Shown here: piece by piece, positions 2,640 to 28,800 of the stretch
How positions within the stretch are numbered: position 1 is the first letter of the stretch
Layout: each line of letters opens with the position of its first letter
Virus record (IMG/VR): IMGVR_UViG_3300006916_000122
Coordinates: 1 to 39,224 of that record
Source: a virus
DNA: 39,224 bases
Reading direction: 5' to 3' (one strand)
Translations under genes and position numbers: made by a program
Notes under the pieces: generated by a model
The model's input: the letters and a program-made list of their open reading frames with translations, nothing else
The model's database searches: none
Told to the model about the DNA's origin: nothing

Positions 2640-2677
2640 CCTAATGAAGAGCAGATGTCAGCAAAGAAAAGGGTGAT

Positions 2678-2893: not shown

Positions 2894-2897
2894 GAAG

Positions 2898-3272: not shown

Positions 3273-3274
3273 TC

Positions 3275-3460: not shown

Positions 3461-3478
3461 CGTTTTAAATAAAATTAC

Positions 3479-3985: not shown

Positions 3986-3997
3986 TAACCTTACAAA

Positions 3998-4376: not shown

Positions 4377-4388
4377 ATAAAACTGTAG

Positions 4389-5401: not shown

Positions 5402-5403
5402 AT

Positions 5404-6297: not shown

Positions 6298-6298
6298 C

Positions 6299-9800: not shown

Positions 9801-11226
9801 TCAAAATATTTCTATGCTCTATTGTTTCAGAAAGCAATGATTCAACTATAGGACGATATGCTTCTATGTAGTTTTTTAAATCTCTCATTGTTCCACCGAA
9901 CTCACCAAGATTTTCATCATAGACACCTTCTTCAAAACCTGCTCTTACAGCAGATATTCTATCGATCAGCTGATTAGCTTCAGCTTCAGCGTTTTCAATA
10001 AAATAGATTATACCTTGAGTAGTAGCATTTTCATTAAGAGCATTTAGCATTTTTCCTCTTAGCTCTTTTTTCTTACCTACATATGTACCTCTTTGCCTGT
10101 GTAGTTGTATTTTTTTATTGATAGCAGATATAGAATCTTTCAATTCTTTATGCATGCCATCATAGATCTTACTGTTATTAAAGTCTTCAGCATTCAACTG
10201 AAAGAAAGTTCCCTTTTCTGTAGCTTTGTCAAGCTCCTCTTTAATTCTACTAGAGTCTTCAAGAGCCTCTGTAGCAATCTGATCAAGACCTTCACGAATA
10301 CGTCTTTCTTTTGCTTTGTTTCCAAATACAAATAATTGTTTAAGTGCATTCCATAATTTCATAAGCATGGATTTTTCGGCAGGTGTTACTCCGACAGCTT
10401 TATTTATAAGCGAGTCAGTAAACATCTTACCTACTATCTCCATACGAACTTTGTCCATATCTCCGTCATACTCATCAATGTACTCTTGAGAGTATTGTTG
10501 CCAATAAGAGGTGCTTTCTATATTATTAAGAGCATCCTGTATTCTAGGGTCATTCTTAAGAGCAATAGTAATGAAGTGACCGACCTCTTCAGGAAGTGTA
10601 TCCATACGTGCAGCACCTTCTTTTACAGCAATACTTTTACGTAAAAGGTCTGCTACTGCATTTGCACGTAAAGGCTTTTTATATTTTTTCTCATACCACT
10701 CCTTGTATTCTCTAAAGTCTACCAGATCAATACCAAGATCGTGCATGATCTTTTTCATCTTACCATCAAGCTCAGAATCAGGAAGACGTTCTTCCATAGT
10801 ATTTATCTGCCTATAGTTAGCACTGAAAGGATTGTATTTTCTACCGTTCTTAGTAATAAAGTAACCGCTTCCTGTACGTGTAGGCTTGAGACTATAACCT
10901 AGCTTTTGAAGTTTCGGTCTTAGTATACCAGGATTAATTTGAGAACTAAAGAAACCTTGGTTGTTTGCATTATACTGCATTGCAAGTTTTCTAACCTCTC
11001 TTGCATTAGATTGAAAAAACGCAGGCTCTTGTTTAACTTCAGGAGCAGATGGAGCCATAGTTGACGTATCGAATGCAGATATTTCAGATGCTGTAGGAAA
11101 TTTTTCTACACCGTTTAAATCCTGCCACAAAGAAACTTTAGCCATTAATATCGCAGGAGGCATTGAGACTTGAGGTACAAGCTTTTTAAAAGCAGGACTA
11201 TTTATATTTACACAATTGTTTGCCAT
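6835..11226 (-). CDS. 1463-aa virion cargo/ejection protein with degenerate zincin motif
   Basis: A very large protein placed directly after the RNA polymerase gene (4-base gap), as cargo proteins are in crAss-like phages. Residues 213-218 read EEVGHF in a helix (DTLPEEVGHFITIAL): the layout of a zincin HExxH site with the first histidine replaced by glutamate. The middle (about 340-900) is helical and charged. The C-terminal third has a conserved-looking block (QRLHGIYNVTD, then WLKPGFNRRFENHYYNW). One hydrophobic segment near residues 1325-1345 (GYFLVVTGLGTIIAGLAG) could span a membrane. Probably packaged and ejected with the genome; a role in forming a passage through the inner membrane is inference. 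Confidence 0.65.
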   Translation of the reverse strand: MANNCVNINSPAFKKLVPQVSMPPAILMAKVSLWQDLNGVEKFPTASEISAFDTSTMAPSAPEVKQEPAFFQSNAREVRKLAMQYNANNQGFFSSQINPGILRPKLQKLGYSLKPTRTGSGYFITKNGRKYNPFSANYRQINTMEERLPDSELDGKMKKIMHDLGIDLVDFREYKEWYEKKYKKPLRANAVADLLRKSIAVKEGAARMDTLPEEVGHFITIALKNDPRIQDALNNIESTSYWQQYSQEYIDEYDGDMDKVRMEIVGKMFTDSLINKAVGVTPAEKSMLMKLWNALKQLFVFGNKAKERRIREGLDQIATEALEDSSRIKEELDKATEKGTFFQLNAEDFNNSKIYDGMHKELKDSISAINKKIQLHRQRGTYVGKKKELRGKMLNALNENATTQGIIYFIENAEAEANQLIDRISAVRAGFEEGVYDENLGEFGGTMRDLKNYIEAYRPIVESLLSETIEHRNILMREDPNSYDETGISKNARIQQMDKVIQSLNNIMGGMTSMKTNYDKYSKSIFIGSFRPFLERRFEGEPDADFKVNEMITQLMENAESTNRDIPLIRRWFDSMAESTDDLLGLTDRLVKQHIEKAAFDLDEIMKDLLEADAKLKKSGNPNTDFMYEMKDGKPTGFFITEFNQSKFDEAKDDFFSSLNARYGMWVVPTNANIDSIVSKIDDQIANIRSGKVKPFDINEKNTAVISPYDYTRIPKRSDSGSVEASIRFLENKKEYVKNNIGNNNLKNQIVNANNAVKNTLDAAQLNDYNQEIGKWFAANTDPNPQWKEIAKAKREEIYNRIVTEKRDKKQIAIQKAKAAEMYTEWFNERYIKDIMGNVSYRREFSTPKKSIYGNNAFAKMTKDQKAYYDTIMKLKKELTSHMPDDIAISMLAPQIRKDLVERIKTDPKRTLPEALRDAFVRREDDTAFGSTRTDEAGNPIKEIPIFYTNELENMSDLSMDTTANMIMFADMATRHKELTKVIDIVEIGRDVIAERKVFSKNGALESTGGRALERYTDYMNMILYGELKDNEGSLMGIDVAKAADALAKYTAINGLAFNVYSGISNVLLGNVLIREEAFAKEYVNQDDLNFARKAYWQAKDGVLGLSGDIGKTESSNKLRLFLEKFDVLQDHESRTRSVNTDRNRWGRMFDSSTIFFLNHVGEHQMQSRMALAMAHNKKVLDANGKEIPMYEAFEVKNNRLIIKDGIKNLNGKEFTKDDMIAFKLKAKAVNQRLHGIYNVTDRAAAQKKAVGRLGMLYRKWLKPGFNRRFENHYYNWSLEQDVEGGYITTFKFFEQLKNELKSDQYTFAAAKEVYNELPDWKKANIRRTLTEVGYFLVVTGLGTIIAGLAGDDDDNWALNMTAYQLSRLSTEIGIFIPGWQMTEVMKIVKSPSAAVNTIDSLLGIVDTIDPSPFNDDPFFSVYKSGRRKGDLKLGVWTKKQIPFANNIEMFFYPEERLKYFVN

Positions 11227-11230: not shown

Positions 11231-14200
11231 TTATTTTAAGCAGTGCATTAACTTTTCTTGTTCAGCTCTTGAAGCAGCATTAAATTCATCCATTGAAAGT
11301 AAGAAAGGACTATCAAGATTATCATTGATTGTTTTCAATTGTTCTTCTGTAATTGTCAATTTAGATTGCTGCATATCAGAAGGTTGTGCTTGAACAGAAT
11401 CTCCTAACTCAGTTGCTAAATTACCAAACATTGCTTGGGTATCTCCTGTAACTTCAGTTCCTGTTTCGATACCAGAAGGTAATTCTTCCTCTACTGTTGT
11501 TACCTCTTCAGATACTCCAGCATTTTTAGATGATACCATTACAAGCTTGTCAGTAGGTCTTGACACAGCAACATATAGAGATTGGTTTTTAGCTTTAATA
11601 GATCCTCTATTGGAAGGTCCCATAATGTTGTCTTCCATAGTATATACATTTTTATAAGTAGATCCTTGTGCCTTATGAGAAGTAATAGCATAACCGTGTT
11701 CTAAGTTTGCAAACTTTGCTTTTAAACCATATGCTAATTGACCATCTGTTCTGAATAACTTAGATACTTCGTTATTAAAATGGTTTCGACCTTCTTCTGA
11801 AATAACCATTATATTCTCTAATATTTTACCATCTTCATCTTTAAGAGTGAGAGTTTCTACATTAAATTCACCTTCAAAAGATCTGCTGCCTTTTGCTTTA
11901 GAGTAAACAGTTACTTTTACTCTTACGTTTTTAGGCTTTGTAGCATCAAGTATTATAAAGTCTTCGCTATTGTGAAAAATAATGTCTTCACTGTCTCTAC
12001 TGTTTTCAGGATTGTATGAATCATAAGCAGTCATAATTTCCCCAGGAATAAACCTTTCTGTGTTTGCTCTATCTCCAAATAGCTTGGCTCTAATTTTTGC
12101 ATTAAGAGACTTAACACTTTGAGAATTGTCATTATTCTGGTTATTGAAAGTTACGATCTTAACATGATTTACATCCTCATTAGCTTCATTTAAGTCAGTT
12201 ATAAAATCATTTAAAGCTTTCTCTTCACTGGATTCCCATAAAATTTTTGATCCGCTTACAGGGTCTACACTGTTCACTCTATCTGATTCTTGAATAGGAT
12301 TAGCAACTCTATTTACATCGTTCTCAGCATTTTCAGCAATTTTAGTACCTATACCTATAATAGGTGAACCAGCAGCCTGACGCATTTTTTCAGTAAGCTC
12401 ATAACCTTTAGCATCTTTAAACGCTATACTATCGGAGTCTTGCCCTACAGGTGGTAACTGAGCTGGGTCTCCCATAAATATTATTTTACTTTTAGAGTGA
12501 GAAAGCTTTAATATTTCTTCATACATCTCATCAGAAACCATAGATGTTTCATCGATTATAACAAGATCATAAGGCTGTGTCATAGGAAAATCACCGCTTC
12601 TTCTTGCAAATTCATCTGCTTTAAATTCACCAGTTGTTTCATCCAGCTTAATAGCTAATGCAGAAGCAATTGTTTTAGTTTGTACTTGTGTACGATCAGG
12701 ATACTTACCGTTGGTCTTTAAAGATTTGTCAAGAACTTTTTTAGCTTTATGAGAAGGTGCTATAGCAAGAACTTTTGCAAAACTGTACCCTTCTTTATTC
12801 TGACCTAATGTTTCAACAATTTTCTTTATAATGGTTGTCTTACCTGTACCACCCTTACCTGTAAGCAAGAATGTTTTTTCACCAGACTCTAAGAAATCAA
12901 CAATTTGATCAATTGCTTCTCTCTGACCTTTGTTTGCAAATACTCCAGGGAAAAGTTCATATATAGTATCACCTTCTTCTTGTTGAAGTGTTACAGGCTC
13001 TACAGTAGGTTGTACTTCCTCTGCTATAGGAGCTTCTGCCATATTGATGATCTCATTTATAGTATTGATGGTCTGCGCTTTAACATTCATGTTTATTGCA
13101 GCCATTTCAACACCGAACTGATCAAGAGTATTTCTAAGCTCCTGCTTTACTTTTGTTTGCTGTTCTGGTGTCATTCTTTTGAATGCTATAGCAAGAGGGT
13201 GCGTAGGATCAACAGGAGCAGACGTATCATAATTATGCAAAGACTCAAGAATCTCACTATTTGGATCACCAAGAAGTTGACCTACTGCAAAGCCTAACTC
13301 TGAAGCTGATGCAGTCTCAGTTGCTTTTAATTCAGGAGTTGACTTTGTAACATAATCACCAATACGTGATATCATAGGTGCTCCAGTTCCAACAAGACTA
13401 AAATCAGTTTCAATTATTTCATTTTTAATTCCTAATCTAGGAACTTCAACATAAATAAAATCTCCTGTATCTGGATCTTTACCCGTATGTTCCAACAAAA
13501 GTGTACGAGTAATTTCTGAGATAGGCTCCTTATATGAAATTTTTATGTATTTAGAAGGTTTTCTTTTCTCAATAGGACTCTTTTTTTGTTGAATAATCTC
13601 CTCCAATCTATCTGATAAAATAACACTTTCAGGAGCTACTTGTACGGCTATATTGTTGTTCTTATCTCTGTATGGAGGTGTTGTATCTTTTCCTAATAAC
13701 ATGTTAGGAATAGGAAGCGTAGTAAAGAAGTTTCTTACAACTTGAGCTGTAATGTCCGGTATTATAGTTTTGACCTTATTTACATCATCGTGAATTTTTT
13801 CAAATTCTTTTTTCAGATAATCAGTATAGCTAATATTAGGATCTTCATGCATTTCAGATATGAAGCTTGTAGGTATAATATCAGAAAACGAAGAAGATCC
13901 GTAAACATAACCAGAATGAGCAAAGCTGTATTTAGCAAGCTCTAAAGCAATTTCTCTTTCTGTTTCATCACTTGATTCCAACATTGAGGTCCAGATATCT
14001 CTGAGTTCCTGCTTATGTGTATCAACAAGACCTGATGTATTAAACGTTAAAATATCAAACCCGCTTAATTCTTTAGATGGTTGTACTACAAATCTATTTA
14101 AGAATAGTTTATAAGGACTGTCTGGGTTATCAGAAAGATATGTATTTATTTTAGAAGGTAATTCTTTAGATATAGAAGAAAGGACATCAGGAGAATGTGA

Positions 14201-17200
14201 GATATATCCTGAACCTATTACTGTAAGTATAGCTCTATAGATAGTATTCTTTTCTTCAGGTCTCAAAGATGTTTTTTCAGACATTGATTCGATCCAATCT
14301 GCAACATTATTGAATATAGATGTTTTATCAGCATACGGAATACCTGTGACTTCTTCTACTATTTTATTAGCCTCTTCTACAGCATATCTATAAAACATTC
14401 CTGCATAAGGTACAGGACTGCCTTCTTTCATAAATTCTTCAAAGCCTGATAATAGCTTAGTTCCTTTATCATCTATTATTTCTTCACCTTTTTCTACAGC
14501 CTTTTTATATTTATTTTCAATAGATATGTTTTCTGCAATAGATGGTTTTACTGAAGCAGATACAGAATCAAATCTCATGGCTGCTACAGTAGGTTTTAAA
14601 GCATCACTGTTAGGGATGACTCTATTTGTTAAGTAATCTATAACAAGCATCGAGTCAGACAATTGCTTATCAGTAAGATCTGATACTTTCTTACCTTCAC
14701 CTCTAATAAGATCAGCTATACTTCCTGTATAGTCAGATGCGTTCTCGCCTTCATTAGCAATATCAAAAGTTAATGTGTTAGCGTATCCTTTCTTTTGATA
14801 TTCTTTGTATTCGTTGTTTATTGTATCAGCATCTTTATCTTCTTTCTCACCTCTTTTGACCAACTCATTGAATAAATTTCCACGAATATTGGCTAAAACA
14901 GCACTTACTGTAGCTGGGTCAGACTTTCCACCTCTATTCAGTCTATCAATAAGTTCTGTTACAACAGGTGTACTTGTAACGGCAGTAGCTGTTTCTATAG
15001 GTACACCTACTCTTACCATTGTAGATGCCCAATCAGATGTTAATTTTGTAACATTCAAAAACGAGAATACAGGATCACTTGCATTATCAACTGCTGCAGC
15101 AAGAAACTCTGCGAGAGCATTTGTAATACGAACACCACCTACTACAGGCTTTGAAAGCGATGCTAATCCTCTCCTACCATTTATATCCATGTTATTACCA
15201 AAAAGGAAATTACCATGTACAGTAAGCATTTGGTTAGCATTATGATTTGCAAAGATTCCGATAAGACCATTACCTGTCATATTTCTAGTAAAGATCTCTC
15301 TTCTTGTAGATGGTAACATAGGATTCAATGCTCTACCAGTATCAGGTCTTAACAACTGAACACCATTTGCCATTTTCTTAAGCGTATTAAAGTTGCCTGG
15401 TCGCAATTGGTCTTCCGTAATGTTTCTTGACGATAGAACAGTGTATGCCATATCAATAATCATATTGTCTCTGGCTTCTTTGCTATCCATACCTGAAGGA
15501 ACTTTTTCAAGTTCGTAATTCTTTAACTCGTCTTTGAGTTCTTCTACAAGTTGCTTTTTGGTTTTACCTCTTTTAAGCTCGGCTCTTACTTTTGCAAGCG
15601 CATTATCATAACCTTCAGGCTTTAGCTCTGAGTTATACATTGTAAGAATAGCTTTCAGCTTTTTCTTAGCAGTAAGATTTTCACCTTTTAAAGCAGAGTA
15701 GGTAGACTCATTTATAGATTTTATTTCATCAATAGATGTTTTATCTATGTAGGTCTTTATAAGATTTGCTGTATTCTGATCTAGAACAAATGAATATTTT
15801 GGATTTATAGTATTTATCTTTTTACCTACAAGATCATCTACGAAATCAACAATAGTTGATTTATTATCATAACGAGTTTTATAAGCCTGTGCCTCTTCAT
15901 TATTAAGTTGATCCTGCAATTCAGGGAACTCTTCTAAAGCTTCAGGGTACTCTTTTAATATAGCTTCAAGCTCTGCCTTTCTTTCTTTGTTGTTGTAAGC
16001 TCTTTTAACGCTATACATCATACCGAACAACTTGTCAATATCAAAGTCAAGACCTGCAATGGTAGTAATCTCATCAGGCAGTATTATCTGACCACCAGCA
16101 CTTGCTGGCATGTATCCGATTACTTTAATATGAAATACTGAATAGAAATCCTCAGTAGGAATACGATAGAAGATTCCTTTTTTAACATCGTCAGGAACAT
16201 TATTTACATCTATGATACCGTTTTCATCAGCGTAACGCTCAAGTCCTTTTAAGTGAGCAGGAAGCAGTGCTTCATAATGATTGATACTTCTGTCTTTATT
16301 GAATACAATCTTAGGCTTCCTGAGACCTTCAGAATTATTTTTATCAAACCCATAAGATGTAGTATTGAACACAGACATACCAGCACCTTTTGAAGTCCTT
16401 TGCTTTGTAATTCTGTTTTTAAAGAAAGAATAGATCATTGCCTCAACTCTTGTGGCAATGTGAGGATGCCACATAGGTAAGACAGTTTCATCCTTATTCT
16501 CATCTAACCAATCAAATGCTTCTTCAATATCTTCACCAAGCTCTCGATTAACCGCTTCTTCCTGTAATGCACTTAGAAGTCTTTCTTTATTTACCTCACC
16601 ATTTTCATCATAGAATATTTTTTTCAGTTCCTCATATGACTCTTTAATGTTAAGAGCCATAGCTTCTTGATACTTATCAAATATCTCGTGACCATACACC
16701 TCACCTTCTGGTGTTTTATACAGTCTATCAAGATCAATATTCATAAGGATCTTACGAAGCTGAGTACCAAATAGAATATCAGTATCAATGTGGTGTTCAG
16801 GAGTAGCTTGCTGAATACGGAACTCACTATTGTTCATAGTAATTACGTTTTCAGATGAGATGCTACTTATGTTATCTTGAACATTATAACGACCTACTTT
16901 GACTGCTGATGTAAACATTATAGAGTCTGTAACTCTATTAGCAGCATCGTAACTCCAAGTACCGTTCGCAAACGTATAACCCATCTTCTCCATCATCTCT
17001 TGGATCTTAGGGTTTCCTATAGCCATTTCTGGAGTAAGAAGCATTTCTGCATTCTTATGCATTGTGGTAACCATTGTTTTTGTACCATCTGCATGCTCTA
17101 TTTGATTTTGCACATACTGGAAAGGTTTGATCGGATTGAATACTATAGCAGCATTGGTAGGTAATGTCTCACCATTCATTATAGCATTAAATACTTTTTG

Positions 17201-20200
17201 CTTTTCATCACTCCATTGACCTGTACCTAATTGTATATCACGAAACCTTACAATATCAATCCAAGTTGCACCATCTGTGTTATTAAGACCTCCTTTATTA
17301 GGATTATTCGGATCGTCTTCTATTCCATATGCTGTACGTATGTTCTTATTACCATCCCCTTTAAACAATTCAGAAATAGCATTTTTATGCTCTGTTCTTA
17401 TTTTATTAACTTCAGTAGGATCTTGAACATAAGAAACATTGTACGTAGGTCGAACAGAAATTACATTCCCGTTTCCATCATTGTATTTTGCATTAGGGTT
17501 AACATTGATATAGTCTCCAGGTGACCATATTCCTTTGGCACGTTTGTATACATCTACAACATCAACCTTACCTTTACCTTTAAATAAAGCAGGGTCTCCA
17601 TTAAAGGTCATCATAGTCTGCATATTCATGTAGATATTATTCATTAAATATCGCATGATATTGCCATAACCTTCTTTACCTCCAATAAAATTGCTATCAA
17701 TTACACCGTTAGGATCAGTAAGATATATGTTATTTTGTTTGTCTTTTGTTTCAATTAAAACGCCATCTTCAAGAAGTCTATTGTATTCAAGCTGTGCAAG
17801 TTTTTCAATTTCATTTTTTACAAGCTTTTCGAGAGTACCTTCTTTAGACAGATCTTTACCATTCAAGAAAGTAAACAACTGAAAATTCGGACCATTTGCG
17901 ATCATTGAATCTGTCAATGTATCAGTGGTTCCGTTTGCAATCATCTTCTTCACAAAGTCAACACGCGCTTTTTCTTGCTTTGCAGTTTCAACAATATTCT
18001 TTAACGCCTCTCTTTCACTAAGCTTTTCACTTCTAAGGAAAGCAGCAGATGTAGAATCAGCAAATACAGGCATCATAAAATAGCCGTAGTTTGATTCTTT
18101 CTTATTTTTGGCTGCACCTTGTATATTACTGAAAGCATTGATATTAACTGCCTCAAGTTCTTGAGGACTAAGATCTTTATACTCTTTTGAGAATTTCTCA
18201 CCTTGCTTTCTAAGTCCATCAAAGACAACAAACTTGTGTGCCTCTCTAAACTTAGCATCGCTTTTCATTCTTTTTAAGAAAGGAGAGTCTGCATAGAAAG
18301 GATCTTCCATTAGAGTATCTATAAACTGATGCCCACCATCTTGATCAAGAGATTGTCTCAGGTTATTCAAACGTCTGAACATATATCTTGATTGGAGGAA
18401 TGAATAGATCATTTCTCCAGATGCACTTTTGAAAGAAGGCTGATACATGTTATCCTTTATGGATACAATTGCTTCAGCCATATTTTCTACCGACTTGTAA
18501 GACTCTATGTCCTCATTGAAAAATGGGTCTTCACCTTTTTGCAAAGTAGACAGCATCTTAGAAAAACCTTTTTCTTCGCCTACACCTGCAAATAGTTTAA
18601 ATCTTTGAACACCGTATTTTGAACTTTCTTTAGGGCTGCCGAATAAAGCATCAATCTCAGAATCTGTCAAAGGTATTCTTAAGTCTTTTATTATCTTTTT
18701 TATTTGCTCAAGATCTTCAGCTTCAAGATTCTCATTGTTTGCAGACTTCTTATACTTATCTACTATTTTAGAGAATGTGTCTACATAACTGTCAATATTC
18801 TTAACACTATACGTTCCTTCTGTAGGATTATAATGTACACTATTCTTCATAGAGTACCGAAGGTTATCAATCAGGTCTCTTTTAAGATCTCTTTTATTTG
18901 AAAGGAAAGGTGTTGAAGTACCGTCTTCATTGACCTGCATCATCATAAAACCTATGTTCTCACGCTGACCTATGTTTATCCAAAATTCATCTTGTAAGTT
19001 GCTATCCTCTTGAAGTGTTTTATATATAACGTCATAGTTTCCTTTTAAATCAACAAGATTTTTTAGCTTGTTCATCATATCTTCAGATGATCTAGCACCA
19101 CTGATACTATGTATAAGGTTTGCCTTAACGTTATTAGGATCTTCATATGTAGAGTATCCAGCAAACAATTGGTCTGAGTATACACTTGCAAAAAGTCTAT
19201 TTGCCTTTTGATTGAACTTTTCAAAAGAACCTATAAACTTTTCTTTGACCATCCAGTTTTCTACAACATTTTCATCTTGCATTAGAAGGTCTGCATCACC
19301 TTCAGTAAAATCACTGTTTGATGCTTCTTCGCTATATATATTATATTTTATTCCGTAGTTGGAAAGTGATGTAACAAGCTTTTTAATGAAAGGAGTAAAC
19401 TTAAGATTATACTCACCTGTTCCAGGATCGTCAGATCTTGTGGCAAGAGTATCAAGAGTTCTTCTCAGTTGGCTTTCCTCCTCTGGAGAAAAATCCCTTT
19501 CTTCTTCAGGAAGTAAAGAATCATCTGAAAGTGCCTTATACTCCATTCTGTAGAACTGCTCGTAGATACCTTGTATAGTGAACATAGGATCTTTTGAAGA
19601 TTTACCCCTCTTAAATATTTCCTGAAGAGTTTCTTTATCATCCAGACTTCTGAGACGCTCGTTGTATTCAATTGTTTCTGCGTCAGTACCTTCTTTTTGT
19701 AAATACGTATCTCGGTAATTAGGAAGTACAGTATTTATAATACTACCATTAATAAACCTCTTAGCTGCAATCTTTTCTGCTGGATTTAAGAATCCGTCTT
19801 GAGCACTCTTTACACGCTTGAATCTTGTGATATTCCTTTTAAAATCAATATCACCTATTCTTCTAATAATACCGTTGTTGTAAAGACCTCTGCTTGTACG
19901 GTACATATAGTCATTCATATTAGCAGAACCGATGCCGTAACGTTCTCCTGCTATACGAATAAGATGCCATAGACGCTTAAAGAAATCAGCAACTTTTGCA
20001 GGAAGAGTATCGGCGATCTTACCTTCTGTCATCTGATACTCCATGAACACATCTGACCAATGTTCTTCTATATTGATATCACCTTTTGCAAACGTTTCAC
20101 CAAGCTTGAGTATTTCGTTACGCTCTTTTTCAGTAAGCATAAGATTAAACACAACGTGGAATGCTTCATGGTAAGTAGTTCCCTTGGCTGCATTACTCTG

Positions 20201-23200
20201 AATGAATACAGAAGCGTTGGTAAATAGACCCCATAGATCAGGACCTCCTTTACCTGCTATCTCTTTAAGATCTTTAAGAACTTCAATAGGAACGTTAGGG
20301 TAATGCTTTTTAAACCATGCAAGCTCTTCTTTTTCATTCCACTGCTCATAATCTTCTTTTGCCTCTGCTGTACGCTTTCTATCTTTACCTGGTCTTCGTG
20401 TATTATTTTTAGGAGGAGAAGGTGGAGGTGGAGTTTTAGGTTCTGCAGGTTGTGTTGGTGGTGTTGGTGGTGCAGTAGGTTGTACAGGTGTAGGTACTTC
20501 TCCTGCTTGTTCAAGTATTTTATTTATTAAAGCTTTTGCTTTAATTTCTTTTCCTATGCTAGTATTATTTAAAGATATAACACGACCATCTGACAATACT
20601 GCATATTTAGTAACCTTTCCTTTTCTGTCTGTTAGTTGTACATTTCTTACAGTACCTTGAGCAGTCTCATATTTTACAAGTACTTTATTTTTAACAGTTG
20701 GATTTTCTACAGGATTACCATTAGCAAATGTCATCTCACCCGTCTGAGGGTTGTATGTAATTTCAAACTGGTTTACCTTAACTGTTGTCGTAGGTTGTGC
20801 TGTAGCAGTAGGTGCTTCTTGAAGAGAGTTATTAACTTCAGCAACAAGATCTTTAAATGCTTGCTTTACTTTAGATCCTTCATTATTAGAATAAGTTTCT
20901 CTACCACTATTTAAATATTCAAAATTATATTCTTTTCTTAATTCTAAACCTTTTTCTTTACTTAATGCTTCTCCAGTGGGATTTTGTAAAGCAACAGTAT
21001 TTCCAGTTATTTCATTTGCAAAATCATTTAAATTTCCAAAATTAGAATCTATAAAAGCTCCGACAGAAGCAAGAGCAGCAGAATTATTATAGGATGCCAT
21101 TTCGACACCACCAATTTTATTTATCCATGTACCGTTGAATCTTGCATCTGCCTCTATACCTAATACAGGATAAAAAACACCTTCTTGTAAAGCTTTTTTA
21201 CCTTTACCTGTAGAGCTATAGAATGTAACAGGAACACCATTAATTTTTACTTTGACAAAAATTCTTTGCCCTGCTCCTGTTAATATATTATCTCTATATT
21301 CTACAAACTCAACTTTTTGACCGTTTACATTAAAAGACTTTCCCCTTAAAGATTCTGCATGTGCTAATGCATCTTCTACAGTATTAAACCTTTTTTCTGC
21401 AGGATCTACTTTTTTATTTTCTTTTGCTGCTTCTAAATTTTTCTTTTGAGAATCAGTCAAAACATTTTCTACAGGAGTAGTAGGTGTAATAGTCGGTGCT
21501 GCTGCAGTAGTAGGTGCTGTTGTAGCATCACTAGTTTGTTGTGCTGATTGTTTAGCCTTAAAAGCCTCAACTCTTTCTTTTACTTTTAATATAGGAGCAT
21601 CTTCGACTACTTCATATGTAGCCAAAGCTCTTTTAAAAGCACCTCTTAAAACTTCTTGAATTGCTGCTTCTGATTCTACACCATTAAGCTTTTTTGCTTT
21701 ACGTTGTGCCTTTGCTAACGCAATTTTATTTTTTTCTTCTTGTGTTAAATAAACATGCGAACCACCCCTGCCAATAATCCGACCTTTACTATCTTTTTCA
21801 TTAAACTCATTATCCATTGGAAATGCGATTTCATTTCCAGCACTACCACTATATTCAGCCTTTCTTTTACCATCTATAACTTCTTTGATTCTAGCAATTC
21901 TGTCTGCAAAGAAAGTTCTAACAAGTGGCATAGCTGTAACCTCTGCTTCAGTAATAGGATCACTAGTTTGTTGTGTGGTTGTAGTAGGTGCAGGTTGAGA
22001 TGAAGTAGGTGCATTATTCAAATTAAGTTTTACACGAGAACCAAGAGTCTTGAATGCTTCAGGTGAAATGTCAATCTTTATTCTACCCTCATCAGCCATT
22101 TGGCGATTGTATTCAATACTGCTATTTATCTTTTTAGCATCAACACGCATTGCCTTAGAAAGAGCAAGCTTTTTAATTTCAGCCATAGACATAGCTTCGC
22201 TTACTTCATTCGGACTTGTTGTTTTCTCTTTGAATACTTCTGAGAAATTACCTGTTGCTTTATTGTATTGAATGTTAAAAGCAATGATACCTTCAAGATC
22301 AGAATTTATATTATCCTGAAGTCTTTTTATTTCTTGATCGTTTTTGGCTTCCTTTATCTTGGTCTCAAACTCTTCAAGAAGATTCATTACCTCTTGTGTA
22401 AGTTTTTCATTACTTGATAATGGCATTGCCTTCATATATGCAGGTAGGTACAACCCACTTGCAGAACGAATAAACATTACAGTTTGACCAGGGTAATTAC
22501 CTAATAATGAATTAACGTCCCAAGTGGTCTGTATAGAAAAGCCGTAATTGTCTTTGAATATTTTTTCACCACCGTTGGTGCTGATTTTAACTTTACCGTC
22601 TTTGTCTCTACCTATTACTGTTCCAAAGAAAAGAGGTTCTTTCTCTTCATTTAGTATTTCTCTTGGAGATAGATTAAACTGTTGGGTTCTATTGTACTCA
22701 CCATTTGTCCGAGAATCAATTGTTACATCGGATTCAAAATTGAATACTCCAGATGTTTGACCGCTTTCTAACCATGCGTTATACATCTCTTGACGCATAG
22801 CAGCAATCTTCTTAGCATTCTCAGTTTGAGGATTTTCTTCTACAGCAGGAAGCATTCCAACCGTATACTCCTTACCTTCATGCTCAACTACTACAGCTAC
22901 AAGACCTTTGACTGCTCCGTTCTGACCTTTAGAATTAAGATCAGAAGGGTTGAAATCATAGTCAAGAAGATACCTTAATGTGATCTTCTTACCTGTAAGT
23001 TTAACATCAGGGTTATTAAGAATCCTAAAATCACTAGCATTCATAAATGGTTCTGATACACCATTCTTTGTAATAGTATTATATCTGTGAGCGATAGGTT
23101 GGTTATCAGATTCTCTTAGAATATAAGGACCAGGGGATTCGTATTCTTCACTTCCTCTGAATGGAGCAAGTTTTACATCTCTGCCGAGTTTTTCACTAAG

Positions 23201-25855
23201 TATGTCTTCTAATGCTTCTGGTGTAAAAAGTGTTTTAGGACTAACATCTTCTATTCCTGTTATAGTAACCATACCTGTATCTTCATCATATGTATATAAT
23301 GCGTACTCATTAGATCGCATTATAGAAGCATCGTTACTATTGTAATCAATAGTAGTATCTACATTACCAGCTGTAGATGGACTACCTCCAGAAGGTTGTT
23401 TTACATCAACAGGTGCACCCCCTGCAGTATCTACATTTGTAGATCTTTTCTTTTGTAGATCAGAATACAGTTCGTCTACGACTTTTCTAAACTCAGCATT
23501 GTTGGCGTATTTATTAGCAAATGTTTCACCGTTCACAATACCAGATACATCACCTCCAGCTTCAGCTATTTTTGCTAGGTCATTCTTTAGAATAAGACTG
23601 CTTTGATATCTCCTTTTGATATCATTGTCTTTGGTCTCATTGTTAGTAGGTATAGGTGCGATCTCAGAAGCAGCGTTTGTAAGATCATCGATCTTTTGTT
23701 GCACTTTCTTTTTACCTTCTTCAGTAAGAGAAGGGTTTTTCAATATGGCTTCAAGTTTAGAAAGAGGTGTAGTATGATTGACAGCATCAAGAGATTCTTC
23801 AAGAGTCTGTTTTTCAAGATCCTTTTTTCTTCTTTCTACATAATCTGGTTGAGACATTTGACCCAACAGACCATCTAATGCAGCATTATGAACACCTAAA
23901 TTCTCTTGTTGAAATATTAAACTGGCATCTCCGATCTGCTCACTACCGATTACATCACCGAATAATTCTGCACTTACAGGAGTTGTAGGAACTTCTGTAG
24001 TAGAAAGACCTTGTTTTTTTAGGTTTTCTTTTGCTTTGGCAATATTATCTTCAGCTTTCTTTATTCGATTGTCAAACTCTGCTATAGTAGCATCATAAGC
24101 CATATCGTCTTTATTGTTTTTTTCGTAAAGCTTTTTAGAATCTTTTAGGATATCAAGCCGTGTTTGATTTTCTTTTAATGTAAACTGGTCTTGAGTCATT
24201 CCCTCTAAAGCTTTCTTTTTAGCAATTTCATATTTTGCGTCAACCTTAGTTAAGGTTCTTGAAATACTATCCTTATTGAATAATGTTGAAAGCTCATCGG
24301 TTTTCTGTTGATCTGTAGTATCAGCATTATCCCATATACGAGAATACTGTTCTCCTATAAAATCGATCTGCTCAAGTATCTCTGCATCTCTAACTCTTTT
24401 GTCGGCAATCTCTTCTTGAGTCATATCTCTAGCAAGAAGATCTTCATCAGAAGCTGCAGCCATTTCTTCATAGAAAGTTCTAAGATCACCTAATCTACCA
24501 GCTCTTGCATAAGCATATGCCTGTCTTAAAAGACTCGTGTCCTGTACAGTATGAGCAGTAGCTATGTCTCCATTATCAAGTGATTGTACGGTAGCAAGAT
24601 ATGCATCTTCATTTCTTTTCATACCTGAAACAATATCAGCACCTTTACCTACAGCTTGAAACAAACCTCCTCCAAATGCTCCTAAGAACATTGCAGACTG
24701 CATTTCAGGATCACTTAGGTAATCACCCATTCTTGTTCCTAAATTCTTAAGTTCTAAGAAAGGTTTGTCACCTACTGCGGAACGCTGTGCTTCTTGTGCT
24801 GTTACAAACTGAATACCTTCTTCAGCAGCTTCAGATGCCATACCTCCGATATAATCACCTGCTTTTGCAAGCAAGCCTTTTCTGAACTCTTTATTTGCAA
24901 CGTTTGCAATACTAGGACCTTTGATCAAAGTCATATATTGAGCAACATCAAAAGCAAGGTTTACCCAGTTTGCACTCCAAGAAGTTCTTGCGGCATCACC
25001 AGCTTTGATCTTAGCTTCTTCTTCTGACATTCCTTGATTCATAAGTTCTTGGAATGTAGATTCATATGTTTCAGCAGCCTCCATCGTATTCTCCATATAA
25101 CGAGATACGACAGCTTGGCTTGCACCACTAGCTATGTTTTGAAGTTTGTTACTACCTAAAGCTTTGTTTACACCACTGATTATCTGAGAACCTTTCTTTA
25201 CACCTTTGGCAGCTTTAGCAGCTTTAGTAGCTGCATTGATTCCTGCAAGACCTCTTAGACCTTTACCTGCTACACTCAAAGCTTTTACTGCACCGTAAGC
25301 AGGTATCATCATAGAAAGTGTTGATACAATTGAATCAGCATTAGTTGCCCACCATGATCCATCAAATGGTGCAAAACCTTCTTGTGCAGACTCTGTTTGG
25401 TAAATAGGTGTAGCTTCACGCACAGCCTCTTTACCTTTCTTCATCGCATCAGCAAACCAATTACTAAACTCTTGCTCATCACCTTTCAGGTAGTCACCCA
25501 TTTGCTCCCAATCAGCAAGATAACTAAGACCTTCAAGAGTGCCTAAACCTATTTCTGTAGCACTTCTGGCAGCAGCTGCACCAAGAAGATCCCAACCGTC
25601 CTGTGTTTGAGCAAGCTGTGCTTCTAAATCACGATCAGGTCTAATGTCACGATTAAGCTCTGCATAATCTACATCAAAACTTGTATCCATAACACCTCCT
25701 ATAGGAGCAGCTTTCGGTGTAGGTCTATCAATAGGAGATAAACGAGGTCTTTCGGAAGGCTCGTTTATAATAGGACTAGCTGTCTGATCAAGCTGCTCTT
25801 GTCCTAAAACTTCGGTATCCTTGATTAAAGGAGTAAGTCTTGGTCTTTGTGCCAT
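11231..25855 (-). CDS. 4874-aa virion protein: zincin + crAss-type RNA polymerase (DFDID) + SF1 helicase
   Basis: One uninterrupted frame. Residues 1-450: a Pro/Arg-rich start, then Ala/Lys-rich amphipathic and hydrophobic helices (STLSMMIPAYGAVKAL), perhaps membrane-active. Residues 450-1830: helical and strand-rich modules joined by Thr/Pro/Gln linkers, the last a polyproline stretch. H1896-E1897-A-F-H1900: zincin metalloprotease motif. D3270-F-D-I-D3274: the metal-binding loop of crAss-like phage virion RNA polymerases, e.g. gp66 of phi14:2, where it lies near residue 1361 of about 2180; aligned on it, the polymerase would cover about 1910-4090. Residues 4310-4790: SF1 helicase with GKGGTGKT (4333-4340), IIDET (D4435, E4436), GDPAQLPPVG, SHKAQGSTY and YVAVSRP, like Dda/RecD. 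Likely ejected to transcribe early genes. Confidence 0.85.
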   Translation of the reverse strand: MAQRPRLTPLIKDTEVLGQEQLDQTASPIINEPSERPRLSPIDRPTPKAAPIGGVMDTSFDVDYAELNRDIRPDRDLEAQLAQTQDGWDLLGAAAARSATEIGLGTLEGLSYLADWEQMGDYLKGDEQEFSNWFADAMKKGKEAVREATPIYQTESAQEGFAPFDGSWWATNADSIVSTLSMMIPAYGAVKALSVAGKGLRGLAGINAATKAAKAAKGVKKGSQIISGVNKALGSNKLQNIASGASQAVVSRYMENTMEAAETYESTFQELMNQGMSEEEAKIKAGDAARTSWSANWVNLAFDVAQYMTLIKGPSIANVANKEFRKGLLAKAGDYIGGMASEAAEEGIQFVTAQEAQRSAVGDKPFLELKNLGTRMGDYLSDPEMQSAMFLGAFGGGLFQAVGKGADIVSGMKRNEDAYLATVQSLDNGDIATAHTVQDTSLLRQAYAYARAGRLGDLRTFYEEMAAASDEDLLARDMTQEEIADKRVRDAEILEQIDFIGEQYSRIWDNADTTDQQKTDELSTLFNKDSISRTLTKVDAKYEIAKKKALEGMTQDQFTLKENQTRLDILKDSKKLYEKNNKDDMAYDATIAEFDNRIKKAEDNIAKAKENLKKQGLSTTEVPTTPVSAELFGDVIGSEQIGDASLIFQQENLGVHNAALDGLLGQMSQPDYVERRKKDLEKQTLEESLDAVNHTTPLSKLEAILKNPSLTEEGKKKVQQKIDDLTNAASEIAPIPTNNETKDNDIKRRYQSSLILKNDLAKIAEAGGDVSGIVNGETFANKYANNAEFRKVVDELYSDLQKKRSTNVDTAGGAPVDVKQPSGGSPSTAGNVDTTIDYNSNDASIMRSNEYALYTYDEDTGMVTITGIEDVSPKTLFTPEALEDILSEKLGRDVKLAPFRGSEEYESPGPYILRESDNQPIAHRYNTITKNGVSEPFMNASDFRILNNPDVKLTGKKITLRYLLDYDFNPSDLNSKGQNGAVKGLVAVVVEHEGKEYTVGMLPAVEENPQTENAKKIAAMRQEMYNAWLESGQTSGVFNFESDVTIDSRTNGEYNRTQQFNLSPREILNEEKEPLFFGTVIGRDKDGKVKISTNGGEKIFKDNYGFSIQTTWDVNSLLGNYPGQTVMFIRSASGLYLPAYMKAMPLSSNEKLTQEVMNLLEEFETKIKEAKNDQEIKRLQDNINSDLEGIIAFNIQYNKATGNFSEVFKEKTTSPNEVSEAMSMAEIKKLALSKAMRVDAKKINSSIEYNRQMADEGRIKIDISPEAFKTLGSRVKLNLNNAPTSSQPAPTTTTQQTSDPITEAEVTAMPLVRTFFADRIARIKEVIDGKRKAEYSGSAGNEIAFPMDNEFNEKDSKGRIIGRGGSHVYLTQEEKNKIALAKAQRKAKKLNGVESEAAIQEVLRGAFKRALATYEVVEDAPILKVKERVEAFKAKQSAQQTSDATTAPTTAAAPTITPTTPVENVLTDSQKKNLEAAKENKKVDPAEKRFNTVEDALAHAESLRGKSFNVNGQKVEFVEYRDNILTGAGQRIFVKVKINGVPVTFYSSTGKGKKALQEGVFYPVLGIEADARFNGTWINKIGGVEMASYNNSAALASVGAFIDSNFGNLNDFANEITGNTVALQNPTGEALSKEKGLELRKEYNFEYLNSGRETYSNNEGSKVKQAFKDLVAEVNNSLQEAPTATAQPTTTVKVNQFEITYNPQTGEMTFANGNPVENPTVKNKVLVKYETAQGTVRNVQLTDRKGKVTKYAVLSDGRVISLNNTSIGKEIKAKALINKILEQAGEVPTPVQPTAPPTPPTQPAEPKTPPPPSPPKNNTRRPGKDRKRTAEAKEDYEQWNEKEELAWFKKHYPNVPIEVLKDLKEIAGKGGPDLWGLFTNASVFIQSNAAKGTTYHEAFHVVFNLMLTEKERNEILKLGETFAKGDINIEEHWSDVFMEYQMTEGKIADTLPAKVADFFKRLWHLIRIAGERYGIGSANMNDYMYRTSRGLYNNGIIRRIGDIDFKRNITRFKRVKSAQDGFLNPAEKIAAKRFINGSIINTVLPNYRDTYLQKEGTDAETIEYNERLRSLDDKETLQEIFKRGKSSKDPMFTIQGIYEQFYRMEYKALSDDSLLPEEERDFSPEEESQLRRTLDTLATRSDDPGTGEYNLKFTPFIKKLVTSLSNYGIKYNIYSEEASNSDFTEGDADLLMQDENVVENWMVKEKFIGSFEKFNQKANRLFASVYSDQLFAGYSTYEDPNNVKANLIHSISGARSSEDMMNKLKNLVDLKGNYDVIYKTLQEDSNLQDEFWINIGQRENIGFMMMQVNEDGTSTPFLSNKRDLKRDLIDNLRYSMKNSVHYNPTEGTYSVKNIDSYVDTFSKIVDKYKKSANNENLEAEDLEQIKKIIKDLRIPLTDSEIDALFGSPKESSKYGVQRFKLFAGVGEEKGFSKMLSTLQKGEDPFFNEDIESYKSVENMAEAIVSIKDNMYQPSFKSASGEMIYSFLQSRYMFRRLNNLRQSLDQDGGHQFIDTLMEDPFYADSPFLKRMKSDAKFREAHKFVVFDGLRKQGEKFSKEYKDLSPQELEAVNINAFSNIQGAAKNKKESNYGYFMMPVFADSTSAAFLRSEKLSEREALKNIVETAKQEKARVDFVKKMIANGTTDTLTDSMIANGPNFQLFTFLNGKDLSKEGTLEKLVKNEIEKLAQLEYNRLLEDGVLIETKDKQNNIYLTDPNGVIDSNFIGGKEGYGNIMRYLMNNIYMNMQTMMTFNGDPALFKGKGKVDVVDVYKRAKGIWSPGDYINVNPNAKYNDGNGNVISVRPTYNVSYVQDPTEVNKIRTEHKNAISELFKGDGNKNIRTAYGIEDDPNNPNKGGLNNTDGATWIDIVRFRDIQLGTGQWSDEKQKVFNAIMNGETLPTNAAIVFNPIKPFQYVQNQIEHADGTKTMVTTMHKNAEMLLTPEMAIGNPKIQEMMEKMGYTFANGTWSYDAANRVTDSIMFTSAVKVGRYNVQDNISSISSENVITMNNSEFRIQQATPEHHIDTDILFGTQLRKILMNIDLDRLYKTPEGEVYGHEIFDKYQEAMALNIKESYEELKKIFYDENGEVNKERLLSALQEEAVNRELGEDIEEAFDWLDENKDETVLPMWHPHIATRVEAMIYSFFKNRITKQRTSKGAGMSVFNTTSYGFDKNNSEGLRKPKIVFNKDRSINHYEALLPAHLKGLERYADENGIIDVNNVPDDVKKGIFYRIPTEDFYSVFHIKVIGYMPASAGGQIILPDEITTIAGLDFDIDKLFGMMYSVKRAYNNKERKAELEAILKEYPEALEEFPELQDQLNNEEAQAYKTRYDNKSTIVDFVDDLVGKKINTINPKYSFVLDQNTANLIKTYIDKTSIDEIKSINESTYSALKGENLTAKKKLKAILTMYNSELKPEGYDNALAKVRAELKRGKTKKQLVEELKDELKNYELEKVPSGMDSKEARDNMIIDMAYTVLSSRNITEDQLRPGNFNTLKKMANGVQLLRPDTGRALNPMLPSTRREIFTRNMTGNGLIGIFANHNANQMLTVHGNFLFGNNMDINGRRGLASLSKPVVGGVRITNALAEFLAAAVDNASDPVFSFLNVTKLTSDWASTMVRVGVPIETATAVTSTPVVTELIDRLNRGGKSDPATVSAVLANIRGNLFNELVKRGEKEDKDADTINNEYKEYQKKGYANTLTFDIANEGENASDYTGSIADLIRGEGKKVSDLTDKQLSDSMLVIDYLTNRVIPNSDALKPTVAAMRFDSVSASVKPSIAENISIENKYKKAVEKGEEIIDDKGTKLLSGFEEFMKEGSPVPYAGMFYRYAVEEANKIVEEVTGIPYADKTSIFNNVADWIESMSEKTSLRPEEKNTIYRAILTVIGSGYISHSPDVLSSISKELPSKINTYLSDNPDSPYKLFLNRFVVQPSKELSGFDILTFNTSGLVDTHKQELRDIWTSMLESSDETEREIALELAKYSFAHSGYVYGSSSFSDIIPTSFISEMHEDPNISYTDYLKKEFEKIHDDVNKVKTIIPDITAQVVRNFFTTLPIPNMLLGKDTTPPYRDKNNNIAVQVAPESVILSDRLEEIIQQKKSPIEKRKPSKYIKISYKEPISEITRTLLLEHTGKDPDTGDFIYVEVPRLGIKNEIIETDFSLVGTGAPMISRIGDYVTKSTPELKATETASASELGFAVGQLLGDPNSEILESLHNYDTSAPVDPTHPLAIAFKRMTPEQQTKVKQELRNTLDQFGVEMAAINMNVKAQTINTINEIINMAEAPIAEEVQPTVEPVTLQQEEGDTIYELFPGVFANKGQREAIDQIVDFLESGEKTFLLTGKGGTGKTTIIKKIVETLGQNKEGYSFAKVLAIAPSHKAKKVLDKSLKTNGKYPDRTQVQTKTIASALAIKLDETTGEFKADEFARRSGDFPMTQPYDLVIIDETSMVSDEMYEEILKLSHSKSKIIFMGDPAQLPPVGQDSDSIAFKDAKGYELTEKMRQAAGSPIIGIGTKIAENAENDVNRVANPIQESDRVNSVDPVSGSKILWESSEEKALNDFITDLNEANEDVNHVKIVTFNNQNNDNSQSVKSLNAKIRAKLFGDRANTERFIPGEIMTAYDSYNPENSRDSEDIIFHNSEDFIILDATKPKNVRVKVTVYSKAKGSRSFEGEFNVETLTLKDEDGKILENIMVISEEGRNHFNNEVSKLFRTDGQLAYGLKAKFANLEHGYAITSHKAQGSTYKNVYTMEDNIMGPSNRGSIKAKNQSLYVAVSRPTDKLVMVSSKNAGVSEEVTTVEEELPSGIETGTEVTGDTQAMFGNLATELGDSVQAQPSDMQQSKLTITEEQLKTINDNLDSPFLLSMDEFNAASRAEQEKLMHCLK
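21527..21975. repeat. 17-base direct repeat in linkers of the giant gene
   Basis: ATCACTAGTTTGTTGTG occurs at 21527-21543 and 21959-21975, 432 bases apart (144 codons, in frame). On the coding strand both encode QQTSD inside a Thr/Pro/Gln-rich linker. Identical DNA points to a recent duplication or gene-conversion event between linkers and not merely similar composition. Confidence 0.6.
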
Positions 25856-25869: not shown

Positions 25870-28800
25870 TTATTTAGGTACTACTTCAATAGCATTACTA
25901 TTGAATCCTGAATCTGCTGCCATTACAGCGAGTGCTACAAGAGCGTCATTTATACCCTCTTGTCTTGATATTGCACTTGCGTTATATGTATTGTTTTTCA
26001 ACTGAGCAGAACCTCTTAACATGTTTACGTTAAATTGAGAAAGAACATTATTTACAGTCTGCTGATCTACAGAAGAACTTTTAAAAGCATTGTTTAGAGC
26101 TGTAGTTATTTTAGAAGGATTGTTTCTATCTGACATGCTCATGCTCTTAAATACATCAACAGCCTTTTTAAAGTTTGGATCTTTAAAGTTACCGTCTGTA
26201 TCTTTTTCAGTTACATCCCATTGATTCCAACCTCCTCCACCATTTACAAATAGTTTAGAAGCATATTCAATTTGTCGTTGAGGACTCATTGTTTCAATAG
26301 GAATAAACTCGCTACCAACTTCAGCAAAACCTATTCGTTGCTGCTGTTCAAAAGTATCATTATTTTTTGTATTAAGCTGGAACATTCCCATGTTATAGCT
26401 ATCAACTTCATTTGCATTTTTTACAGAAGGGTCAGCTTGGATAGCAGCTTGTTGTTGTGGTGTAGTAAATACTGCATTTTTATCATTGAGATAAGATATA
26501 GAAGTTGCAATCTCAGTCGCAACTCTATTTAGATCACTTGCTGGAATATTGCTAAACTTTGCTGCTTCATTACTATTTGCATCAAGATCAATTATTTCTA
26601 GCTCACCTGTTTCACGATTGAATGTAGGTATTTTACCTGTAATGTTAAAAGTCTTATCGTCATTCTGTGTCATATAAGTATCACCTCCCAAGATCTCTGT
26701 AGCAACTTCTCTTTGCTTATCATTTATAAATATAGATTCTCCTGTATCTGAACCAGGTACAAGAGTCATCGATTTATCTACAATAGCATCTGTATACATA
26801 AGCCTTGCTTTTTCAGAGTCTTGCAGCATACTTACAAATTGATCGGTAATATCTACTTGATAAGATTTTACTGTTTCATCTTCTACTGTTACTGTACCCT
26901 CTCCGCTTTTTGCTTTGACCTGTTTTTCAAATTTTCCTGTAGCAAAAACTTTGAAGTTTCCGTTTTCATCAGCTCTGTAATCTATTTCGACAGTACGCGG
27001 ATTAAAAACAAGATTGCTAAAATCTCTATCTTCTCCCAAGATACCTTTTTCTTCTTTAAGAAGATCTTCCATTTCATCAAAATTTACAGCTTTACCGTTT
27101 ATATATAATTGACCAGCTTCTCTGGATTTCTGTACAGCTGCTGAAGCCAATAGGTGATGTTGTTCATTAGTAAATTTATTATCACCAACAGCGTCTTTAT
27201 CAAAAAGAAGAAGTTCATTATTGTAATATTCTCTATTACCATAATACTCTTTCATTCCTGCATCAACAGCTTGATTTATTTCTGCTCTAGGATCGTGTCG
27301 TTTTTCTACTTCTAACTGTGACTTTTTATTAGCATTTCTAAAAATATCTCCTGCTGTTGAAACGTTTTGCGCTCTTGGGTCAGACGCATCTACAATACCT
27401 ACAAAAGGGATTGATTTTATTTTATCAAGCTCTTTTATAATTTTATCTCTATGAGCATCGCTTTCAACATTTATTAAACTTTGACGAGGACTTGAAGGAA
27501 TTGCTCTTCTATTAGGATCACCACTAAAAGGTATTGCTTTTGCAAGTTCTGGATATTTTTGAGCAAATTCATTATAAGTTTCTTCAGTAAGATTTGAAGT
27601 TAAGTCATTCAAGATTTGTGTTAAATCTGTATCTACTGATTTAACTAAAGCTTCATCAAGATTTTTTTGAGCTGTTTCTCCTAAAATTATATCACCGTGC
27701 TCATCAATGTAAGCTTCTTGTGAAATCTTACCTTCATTTTTTAAATCAGTAAAAGCACTTACTTTTAGCTCATATGCTTTATCAAGAAGTTTTGAAGTCC
27801 TTTTAAATTCTTCTTCAACTCTATTATTAATTTGTGCATCAGTAAGAGAACTTATTGCTTTAGCCTTCTTAACACCATCAACTATTTCAAACTCAGTAGT
27901 AGAAGTTTTTGTTTTATTTTGAGCTACAACTCTATCACGTATCTTTTTCTTTAATGCTTCATCACGTGCTACAACTGCTTCTGTATCACTAGAAGGTAAA
28001 AGAAGTTCCATAAACTCATCTACTCTATTTGTATATCCTGCTGCTTTTGCTACTGCTTCTAAACCTCCTTCAGCAAATTCTGTATTAAGGTCTATATTAT
28101 TTTTGTCACCTTTTTGAGTCATAGCATCAAGCAAACCACTGCCTTGTTGGTCAGCAGCTACTGCTGCTTTGTCTGCTTTAGTAGCACTTTTAATAGTTGT
28201 ATTAGGATCAAACATGGTATACTTTTGAACCTCTGTCATATAATCTGCTTTTAATGAGCCAAGATTATAAACTTCACCTTTTTGTCTAGCTTCCTGTTGT
28301 TTCCACGCAATAAACTTTTGCATCTCTATAGGAGCATCTGAAAGGTTGTCAAGTGTTGTACCATCAGAACTTAAGTTATCAAGATCTGGAGAAACTTGAT
28401 CCATAAATCTTCTTACGGTAAGGGACTTATCATCTGTCTTTATAAGACTTCCATCAGGAGCACGAGAAAAACCTTGTTCGATTTTAGCTTTTACAGGATC
28501 AATATAATGTGCTTTAAATGCAGCAGATGATCCAGGGTTACTCATAATACCATAGTCAGCCAATGTAGGAGCATAACCTGCCATAATCTGATCTTCAGTA
28601 AGACCGAGTGTGTGTTCTCCTGTAGCAGGATTATAAGATTTATGAGTTACATAATTACCATAACCTTCTTGACCTGATTGATTAAGAATAGGTTTCATAA
28701 GTTCACGGTCTGCATTTACAAAATCAGCACGTGCATCACTTTTCCAACTAGAAGATAGTTCAGACAAACCTCTGACAGCACCTCTTACATCTCTTGTTTC

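Follow-up and report, generated by a model that had tools for sequence, protein, structure and literature searches.

A crassvirus giant protein uniting gp47-like, zincin-like, virion-type RNA polymerase and Dda-like SF1 helicase parts in one chain

The IMG/VR record IMGVR_UViG_3300006916_000122 is a linear sequence of 39,224 bases, the whole of which (hereafter, the window) was analyzed. On its minus strand lie, in order, genes encoding a tail stabilization-like protein (1469 aa), a 576-aa protein, a lysozyme-domain protein (856 aa), a 1060-aa protein, a chain of 4874 aa and a 1463-aa protein, and a convergent set of small genes occupies positions 377-6637 of the plus strand (Table 1). The contig is marked as crassvirus by the resemblance of the 1469-aa product to crassvirus tail stabilization proteins, and this homologue, together with the transcription block, assigns it to the order Crassvirales. 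It is probably a fragment of a genome of some 90-100 kb; no TerL, MCP, portal or gene 75 of the crAss type was identified within these 39 kb, a nucleotide search against phages returned no match, and a scan of genome contigs for close relatives found none. The gene following the giant chain encodes a homologue of crAss001 gp49, a virion cargo protein known as ‘putative RNA-polymerase subunit’, and the 1060-aa product, for which the phages searched yielded no match, is a probable cargo or ejection protein. One small plus-strand protein (3506-3985) contains a stretch resembling endonuclease-linked phage families and a transcription-regulator-like part.

The giant chain is a single, real protein with zincin-like, RNA polymerase (RNAP) and helicase parts. 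Its minus-strand frame runs without interruption from ATG to TAA (25855 down to 11231, 4874 codons); the initial annotation named no strand for the interval, and a plus-strand reading of it was rejected, as it contains many stops. The initial annotation had placed HEAFH at residues 1896-1900, DFDID at 3270-3274, Walker A at 4333-4340, Walker B at D4435/E4436, and the helicase motifs GDPAQLPPVG, SHKAQGSTY and YVAVSRP in this frame, and each is found there. These are not chance matches: the RNAP and the helicase are backed by profile, tblastn and model evidence, and the zincin residues are invariant in 17 relatives. The zincin, polymerase and helicase parts were thus correctly named, but the gp47-like N-terminal 1800 residues and the conserved C-terminal tail had been overlooked.

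Table 1. Features of the giant chain and of the neighboring minus-strand genes (positions are those of the window; residues are those of the 4874-aa chain).
Feature	Position	Strand	Evidence
Tail stabilization-like crassvirus virion protein, 1469 aa	33406..37815	-	phrog_28748 7.3e-96; tblastn to crassvirus ‘putative stabilization protein’
Lysozyme-domain virion protein, 856 aa, no cysteine	29056..31626	-	Phage_lysozyme 1.4e-15, Phage_lysozyme2 2.7e-9
1060-aa protein, no cysteine	25870..29052	-	weak similarity to gene upstream of fused chain in L002
Full chain, 4874 aa: gp47-like, zincin-like, RNAP, SF1 helicase, tail	11231..25855	-	one frame
gp47-like virion-cargo region, residues 1-1800	20456..25855	-	29% identity to L002 over 1273 aa; 41% to L016; phmmer to p-crAss gp45 1.4e-16
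Zincin-like domain, residues 1823-1966, HEAFH and EE 1930/1931	19958..20389	-	crAss001 gp47 and Dulem virus 41 homologues
HEAFH motif, residues 1896-1900	20156..20170	-	HExxH in 42 of 49 related segments
Crassvirus virion-type DNA-dependent RNA polymerase, residues 2050-4230	13166..19708	-	tblastn, profile, Foldseek, model match
DFDID, residues 3270-3274, catalytic metal loop of double-psi beta-barrel	16034..16048	-	aligned to DFDID of 6vr4_A
SF1B Dda-like helicase, residues 4305-4780, motifs intact, no cysteine	11516..12943	-	PHROG, Pfam, model
Conserved C-terminal tail, residues 4815-4874, with the chain's only cysteine (4872)	11234..11413	-	alignment to helicase-less relatives
crAss001 gp49 homologue, 1463 aa, next gene after the chain	6835..11226	-	37% identity over 660 aa, 3e-123

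The N-terminal region is homologous to gp47-like proteins of other crassviruses, and the zincin-like domain that follows has its counterpart in the C-terminal part of two proteins, crAss001 gp47 and one from Dulem virus 41. H1896, E1897, H1900 and the downstream E1930/E1931 are invariant across 17 relatives, in support of a zincin-like domain, and HExxH is present in 42 of 49 related segments. Profile comparisons of these segments gave weak similarity only (Zmp1, E 0.013, and Tox-MPTase4), and Pfam likewise returned weak matches; the role of the domain within the chain is putative. In its domain content the chain fits the definition of a polyvalent protein (an injected chain combining an MPTase, a polymerase and other enzymes), its zincin fold and its injection being presumed.

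Polymerase homology extends over about residues 2050-4230, close to the 1910-4090 at which the initial annotation had guessed it. This region matches crAss001 gp50, Dulem virus 41 and cr126_1, and more distantly phi14:2; a tblastn search with the chain reached the crAss001 ‘putative RNA polymerase’ at 3e-41, and the G-x-D-F-D-x-D-K columns are invariant in 41 sequences. A profile built from five such RNAP sequences retrieved a sole PDB chain, 6vr4_A (the phi14:2 polymerase), at 9.9e-70. An 801-aa slice of the RNAP found no PDB entry by phmmer at 1e-3; since both the full chain and the profile find 6vr4 strongly, we take the single-sequence search to be filter-sensitive. An AlphaFold2 model of residues 2700-3860 (pLDDT 84, pTM 0.82) superimposes on 6vr4_A with Z 24.8 (873 residues, 3.3 A; Foldseek 2.5e-36) and places DFDID within a double-psi beta-barrel, as had been anticipated for a crassvirus virion-type polymerase; the two barrels and the overall fold are those of the phi14:2 gp66 family, with its DFDxD signature. 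The next matches of the model, mostly at Z 13-14, are to the RNA-interference polymerases RDR2 and QDE-1. The polymerase would presumably carry out DNA-dependent RNA synthesis on early genes.

The helicase is also complete within the same chain, as originally proposed. It matches the PHROG family ‘Dda-like helicase’ (1.8e-76) and Pfam AAA_30 (2.7e-25), its model superimposes on T4 Dda (PDB 3UPU) with Z 30.9 over 410 of 439 residues, and it carries the features of the SF1B Dda/RecD2 group (Walker A GxxGTGKT, DE, GDxxQ, HKxQGST, SR and the Dda fold), the SF1 motifs being invariant in eight fused copies. By analogy with this family, it would unwind DNA 5'-to-3' at the expense of ATP. The model of the C-terminal part has low pLDDT over most of its non-helicase portion, too low for any RNAP-helicase contact to be discerned, and a docking of the two from this model was set aside for that reason.

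The 60 residues at the C-terminus of the chain, beyond the helicase, show 36% identity (E 1e-4) to the corresponding C-terminal 60 of the helicase-less relative L017, and the ends of L016, L194 and L123 are similar, near the pattern [IL]-[ST]-x-x-x-[FW]-x-x-[LM]-[ST]-x-x-E-[KQ]-x...C. The helicase is therefore placed after the RNAP and ahead of a tail that also terminates helicase-less chains. A profile made from RNAP-chain tails only, when run against 12,461 frames, also detected the C-terminus of L088, a zincin-bearing gp47-like protein (E 2.6e-5); its match to the C-terminus of crAss001 gp47, which lies one residue short of the end, is below significance (E about 0.4).

Separate genes might in principle have been joined into such a frame by mis-assembly or gene prediction: the contig is metagenomic, linear and 39 kb long, and a second contig of the same virus was not found. 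This is extremely improbable, given that the frame extends over 14.6 kb without a stop, the helicase is succeeded in frame by a tail of the RNAP type, and the GC3 of the helicase (0.20) lies inside the range of the whole chain; moreover, the zincin-RNAP fusion is co-linear in L002, L016, L017 and L196, and the RNAP-helicase fusion recurs in at least 15 other loci, including two in public genomes. These co-linear fusions in other contigs exclude the assembly join that had been raised as a concern.

Those loci come from a survey of 94 aligned crassvirus RNAPs, at least 16 of which have an SF1 helicase in the same chain, a count that is not a frequency, as the sequences were gathered partly by helicase searches. 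The helicase is C-terminal in 14 (the window, the public genomes cr118_1 and cr50_1, and L054, L059, L095, L110, L111, L113, L114, L123, L125, L179 and L188), internal in L002, where it lies within the RNAP between stretches matching window residues 3449-3836 and 3828-4175, and near the N-terminus of the chain in L036; L112, possibly truncated by the end of its contig, may be an additional one. Each record with a fused helicase contains one AAA_30 helicase only, the fused copy. Free-standing AAA_30 helicases are encoded by p-crAssphage, cr8_1 and cr110_1, and none is present in crAss001, phi14:2 and many others. Two irregularities were seen among the fused loci. In L002, some 150 residues between the helicase and the resumed RNAP (about 3730-3890) look domain-like, with no Pfam match at 0.01. 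In L110, about 480 bases (4987-5467) break the RNAP frame, the flanking frames matching adjacent polymerase parts; this interruption is possibly an intron or other insertion, and an Rfam search for an intron in the window and L110 returned nothing.

The RNAP and helicase histories disagree. In the RNAP tree, L016, which has no helicase, is the sister of the window (52% identity); L017 (none) and then L002 (helicase located elsewhere) follow, and L194, L195 and L196, also close in RNAP, have no helicase. In the helicase tree, by contrast, the window is sister to L110 (60% identity), the RNAPs of the two being only about 21-24% identical, and L002 is sister to L059/L095. Fusion labels change 12 times over the RNAP tree, at least nine of these changes being forced by starred branches; the trees are quick ones, in which gains and losses at each node are not distinguished. 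Approximately unbiased (AU) tests rejected, on the RNAP data, a grouping of the window with L110 (p 2e-35) and a single clade of the 15 fused chains tested (p 3e-69), and, on the helicase data, a grouping of the window with L002 (p 2e-9) and a single clade of all fused copies (p 9e-5). A single origin of the fusion is thus rejected by both trees, whose conflict indicates that the helicase module was passed among crassvirus lineages and became attached to polymerase chains on more than one occasion. The best explanation for the window is that its helicase was gained by recombination with another crassvirus lineage and inserted before the conserved tail; judging from these trees, crassviruses have built RNAP-helicase fusions several times.

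Cysteine usage sets the fused helicases apart. RNAP chains average 0.15% cysteine, and the sole cysteine among the 4874 residues of the window chain is at position 4872, three from the end. Cysteine occurs within the last five residues of 72 of 81 RNAP chains (0.6 expected), and most of the remainder either carry it a few positions earlier or show an apparent gp49-like end; separate gp47-like proteins also end in cysteine, as do both halves of the L194 chain, which is split in two, and none of 63 gp49-like proteins does. Fifteen of the 16 fused helicases lack cysteine altogether and the other has one. Among non-redundant helicases, 14 of 15 fused but none of 51 free-standing copies are cysteine-free, a contrast overstated by its Fisher p, since the 16 fused helicases are not independent; among all free-standing copies, three of 75, from one close group, lack it. 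Free-standing relatives average 1.1% (about five each), the free-standing crassvirus copies (p-crAssphage, cr8, cr110) contain 8-10, and the small early genes of the window range from 0 to 5%. The ejected N4 virion RNAP (vRNAP), taken as positive control, has no cysteine in 3500 aa; N4 gp51 and gp52 have none either, and gp53, gp54 and the portal have some.

We read these figures as selection against cysteine in proteins that would pass unfolded through the tail and periplasm, and the loss of cysteine from fused helicases accordingly argues that the helicase travels with the chain in the virion. On the same reading, the retained terminal cysteine would have a special function; one guess is that it forms a disulfide tether, which the reducing cytoplasm would undo. 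The five adjoining minus-strand proteins (6835-33353; 1463, 4874, 1060, 856 and 576 aa) contain two cysteines in total, a scarcity which suggests that the 1060-, 856- and 576-aa proteins may be ejected too. Tryptophan and histidine are also halved in fused relative to free-standing helicases (0.49 vs. 1.16% and 1.08 vs. 2.14%, respectively), and a wider compositional pressure may act on the fused copies. RNAP-gp49 fusions (L066, L087, L079, L085 and others), which reach 5641 aa and have a gp49-like end, contain no cysteine.

In another explanation, the chain is a polyprotein from which its own zincin-like domain or another protease frees the helicase, before packaging or after ejection, so that fusion serves only for co-packaging. 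The conserved HExxH...E is consistent with such processing, and related viruses do make gp47 and RNAP parts as separate proteins. We consider it improbable, however: the tail of unfused RNAP chains follows the helicase, so that what has been kept is the terminus of the entire chain and not that of the RNAP; cysteine exclusion spans the helicase, which is thus probably at least packaged and ejected; and HExxH has been lost in seven of 49 related segments, the zincin activity itself being putative.

We favor, at a probability of roughly 55%, a reading in which the chain is packaged and ejected transcription cargo of an uncultured crassvirus and the attached helicase serves the polymerase in cis. 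Packaging and ejection would follow from the phi14:2 and crAss001 homologues together with the cysteine loss: crAss001 gp47, gp49 and gp50 were detected in virions by mass spectrometry (PMC10172136), the crAss001 homologues of the chain's parts have the capsid as their probable storage site and are believed to leave before the DNA (PMC10172136), and the phi14:2 homologues are annotated as structural proteins by MS/MS. The chain would be packed in the virion and ejected before or together with the DNA; the ejected polymerase would transcribe early genes; and the Dda-type helicase joined to it, moving 5'-to-3', would open or clear the incoming duplex, giving access to promoters and stripping bound host proteins, and may help to reel DNA in. 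Such coupling of helicase to transcription, whether by promoter opening, clearing or DNA pulling, would fit the case of N4, whose vRNAP in vitro uses only denatured DNA as template and is believed to depend on host gyrase (PMC12633501); a tethered helicase could solve this double-stranded template problem.

The main rival holds that the RNAP chain is a delivery vehicle, in the manner of phage ‘polyvalent proteins’, and that the injected helicase performs some different early job (starting replication, handling R-loops or forks, displacing host proteins or defenses) and contributes nothing to transcription. What makes this the main rival is the position of the helicase, which is C-terminal, internal or N-terminal depending on lineage and therefore implies no fixed geometry with the polymerase. 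Many giant proteins of phages include unrelated enzymes (PMC5512222), T4 Dda is active in early origin replication (PMC3016281), and the fused copy is the sole SF1 helicase of its family in each record, whereas Intestiviridae make a free-standing one, as if a general job had been taken over. Recurrence within the RNAP chain, with at least nine changes on its tree and a mostly C-terminal location, speaks instead for a polymerase-linked benefit, and we regard mere carriage as possible but not the likelier account. Most crassviruses, including crAss001 and phi14:2, and the closest RNAP relatives L016, L017 and L194-L196 manage without a fused SF1 helicase, which is therefore not required for early transcription in general. 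A bolder version of the cis-acting scheme, to which we give only tentative credence, would have an injected polymerase-helicase machine built repeatedly for melting and reeling in the entering genome free of host factors, every captured helicase being purged of cysteine for passage through tail and periplasm, and the lone terminal cysteine acting as a signal for packaging or release that the gp47-like zincin cargo has in common with the chain.

Among characterized systems, the phi14:2 virion RNAP (gp66, PDB 6VR4) is likewise a two-barrel, single-chain enzyme with DFDID, and a gp49-like gene comes next in both genomes, but it is a separate 2180-aa protein without gp47, zincin or helicase part, and a search of the phi14:2 genome for an AAA_30 SF1 helicase found none. 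With respect to crAss001 (Steigviridae), the window chain corresponds to gp47-like plus gp50-like parts followed by the gp49-like gene; in crAss001 itself, however, gp47, gp49 and gp50 are three separate proteins and an SF1 helicase of the fused family is absent from the record. The giant transcription proteins of p-crAssphage (KP06_gp44/gp45) also combine zincin-like and RNAP parts, but are fused to a gp49-like part, with the SF1 helicase encoded by a separate 492-aa gene. The cr118_1 and cr50_1 proteins (Suoliviridae) have the N-terminal region, zincin-like domain, RNAP, C-terminal SF1 helicase and terminal cysteine in the same order as the window chain; their RNAPs are only distantly related, however, and their helicases fall on other branches of the helicase tree, pointing to independent or exchanged capture. 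T4 Dda matches the chain's helicase over its full length, but both it and RecD2 are free-standing, outside any virion polymerase. The N4 vRNAP (gp50) and the tape-measure-fused vRNAP of P23-45 are, like the window chain, giant virion-injected polymerases with extra domains, the N4 chain being cysteine-free; the former is a T7-like single-subunit RNAP, in contrast, and the latter a distant two-barrel one, and no helicase is mentioned for them in the literature examined.

Zincin-RNAP giants and multidomain transcription proteins are already known in crassviruses (PMC7886860; database names of p-crAssphage gp44/gp45). For a crAss-like RNAP with a helicase, SF1, zincin or fusion, no description was found in the text of the freely readable papers covered; a terminal-cysteine cargo tag was likewise not found described in the literature searched. 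The initial annotation knew of no described crAss-like phage with such a chain, and the papers covered describe none, but the same fusion, which it had proposed to seek in other crAss-like genomes, lies in the public sequences of cr118_1 and cr50_1. As far as checked, what is new here is the recognition and survey of the fusion, the exchange between lineages, the cysteine loss and the terminal cysteine tail. A virion RNA polymerase must somehow initiate on double-stranded DNA that is entering the cell, a step for which N4 presumably needs host gyrase; a polymerase with its own helicase would be a self-contained answer. Cysteine scarcity may allow injected phage proteins to be recognized from sequence only, in genomes by the thousand; the terminal cysteine, for its part, hints at a cargo tag in crassviruses, which are very abundant among the viruses of the human gut.

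In public records, RNAP-helicase fusions are hidden under other names. The cr118_1 ‘exonuclease V’ (NC_055872.1 16381-31221, 4946 aa, YP_010110531.1) and the cr50_1 ‘DNA helicase’ (MT774375.1 65825-80149, 4774 aa, QOR58058.1) each contain a virion-type RNAP and a zincin-like domain. Two further giants, L116 (1235-15142, 4636 aa) and L120 (5003-12481, 2493 aa), have a cysteine-free SF1 helicase in mid-chain, with no RNAP detected, and are perhaps other injected proteins.
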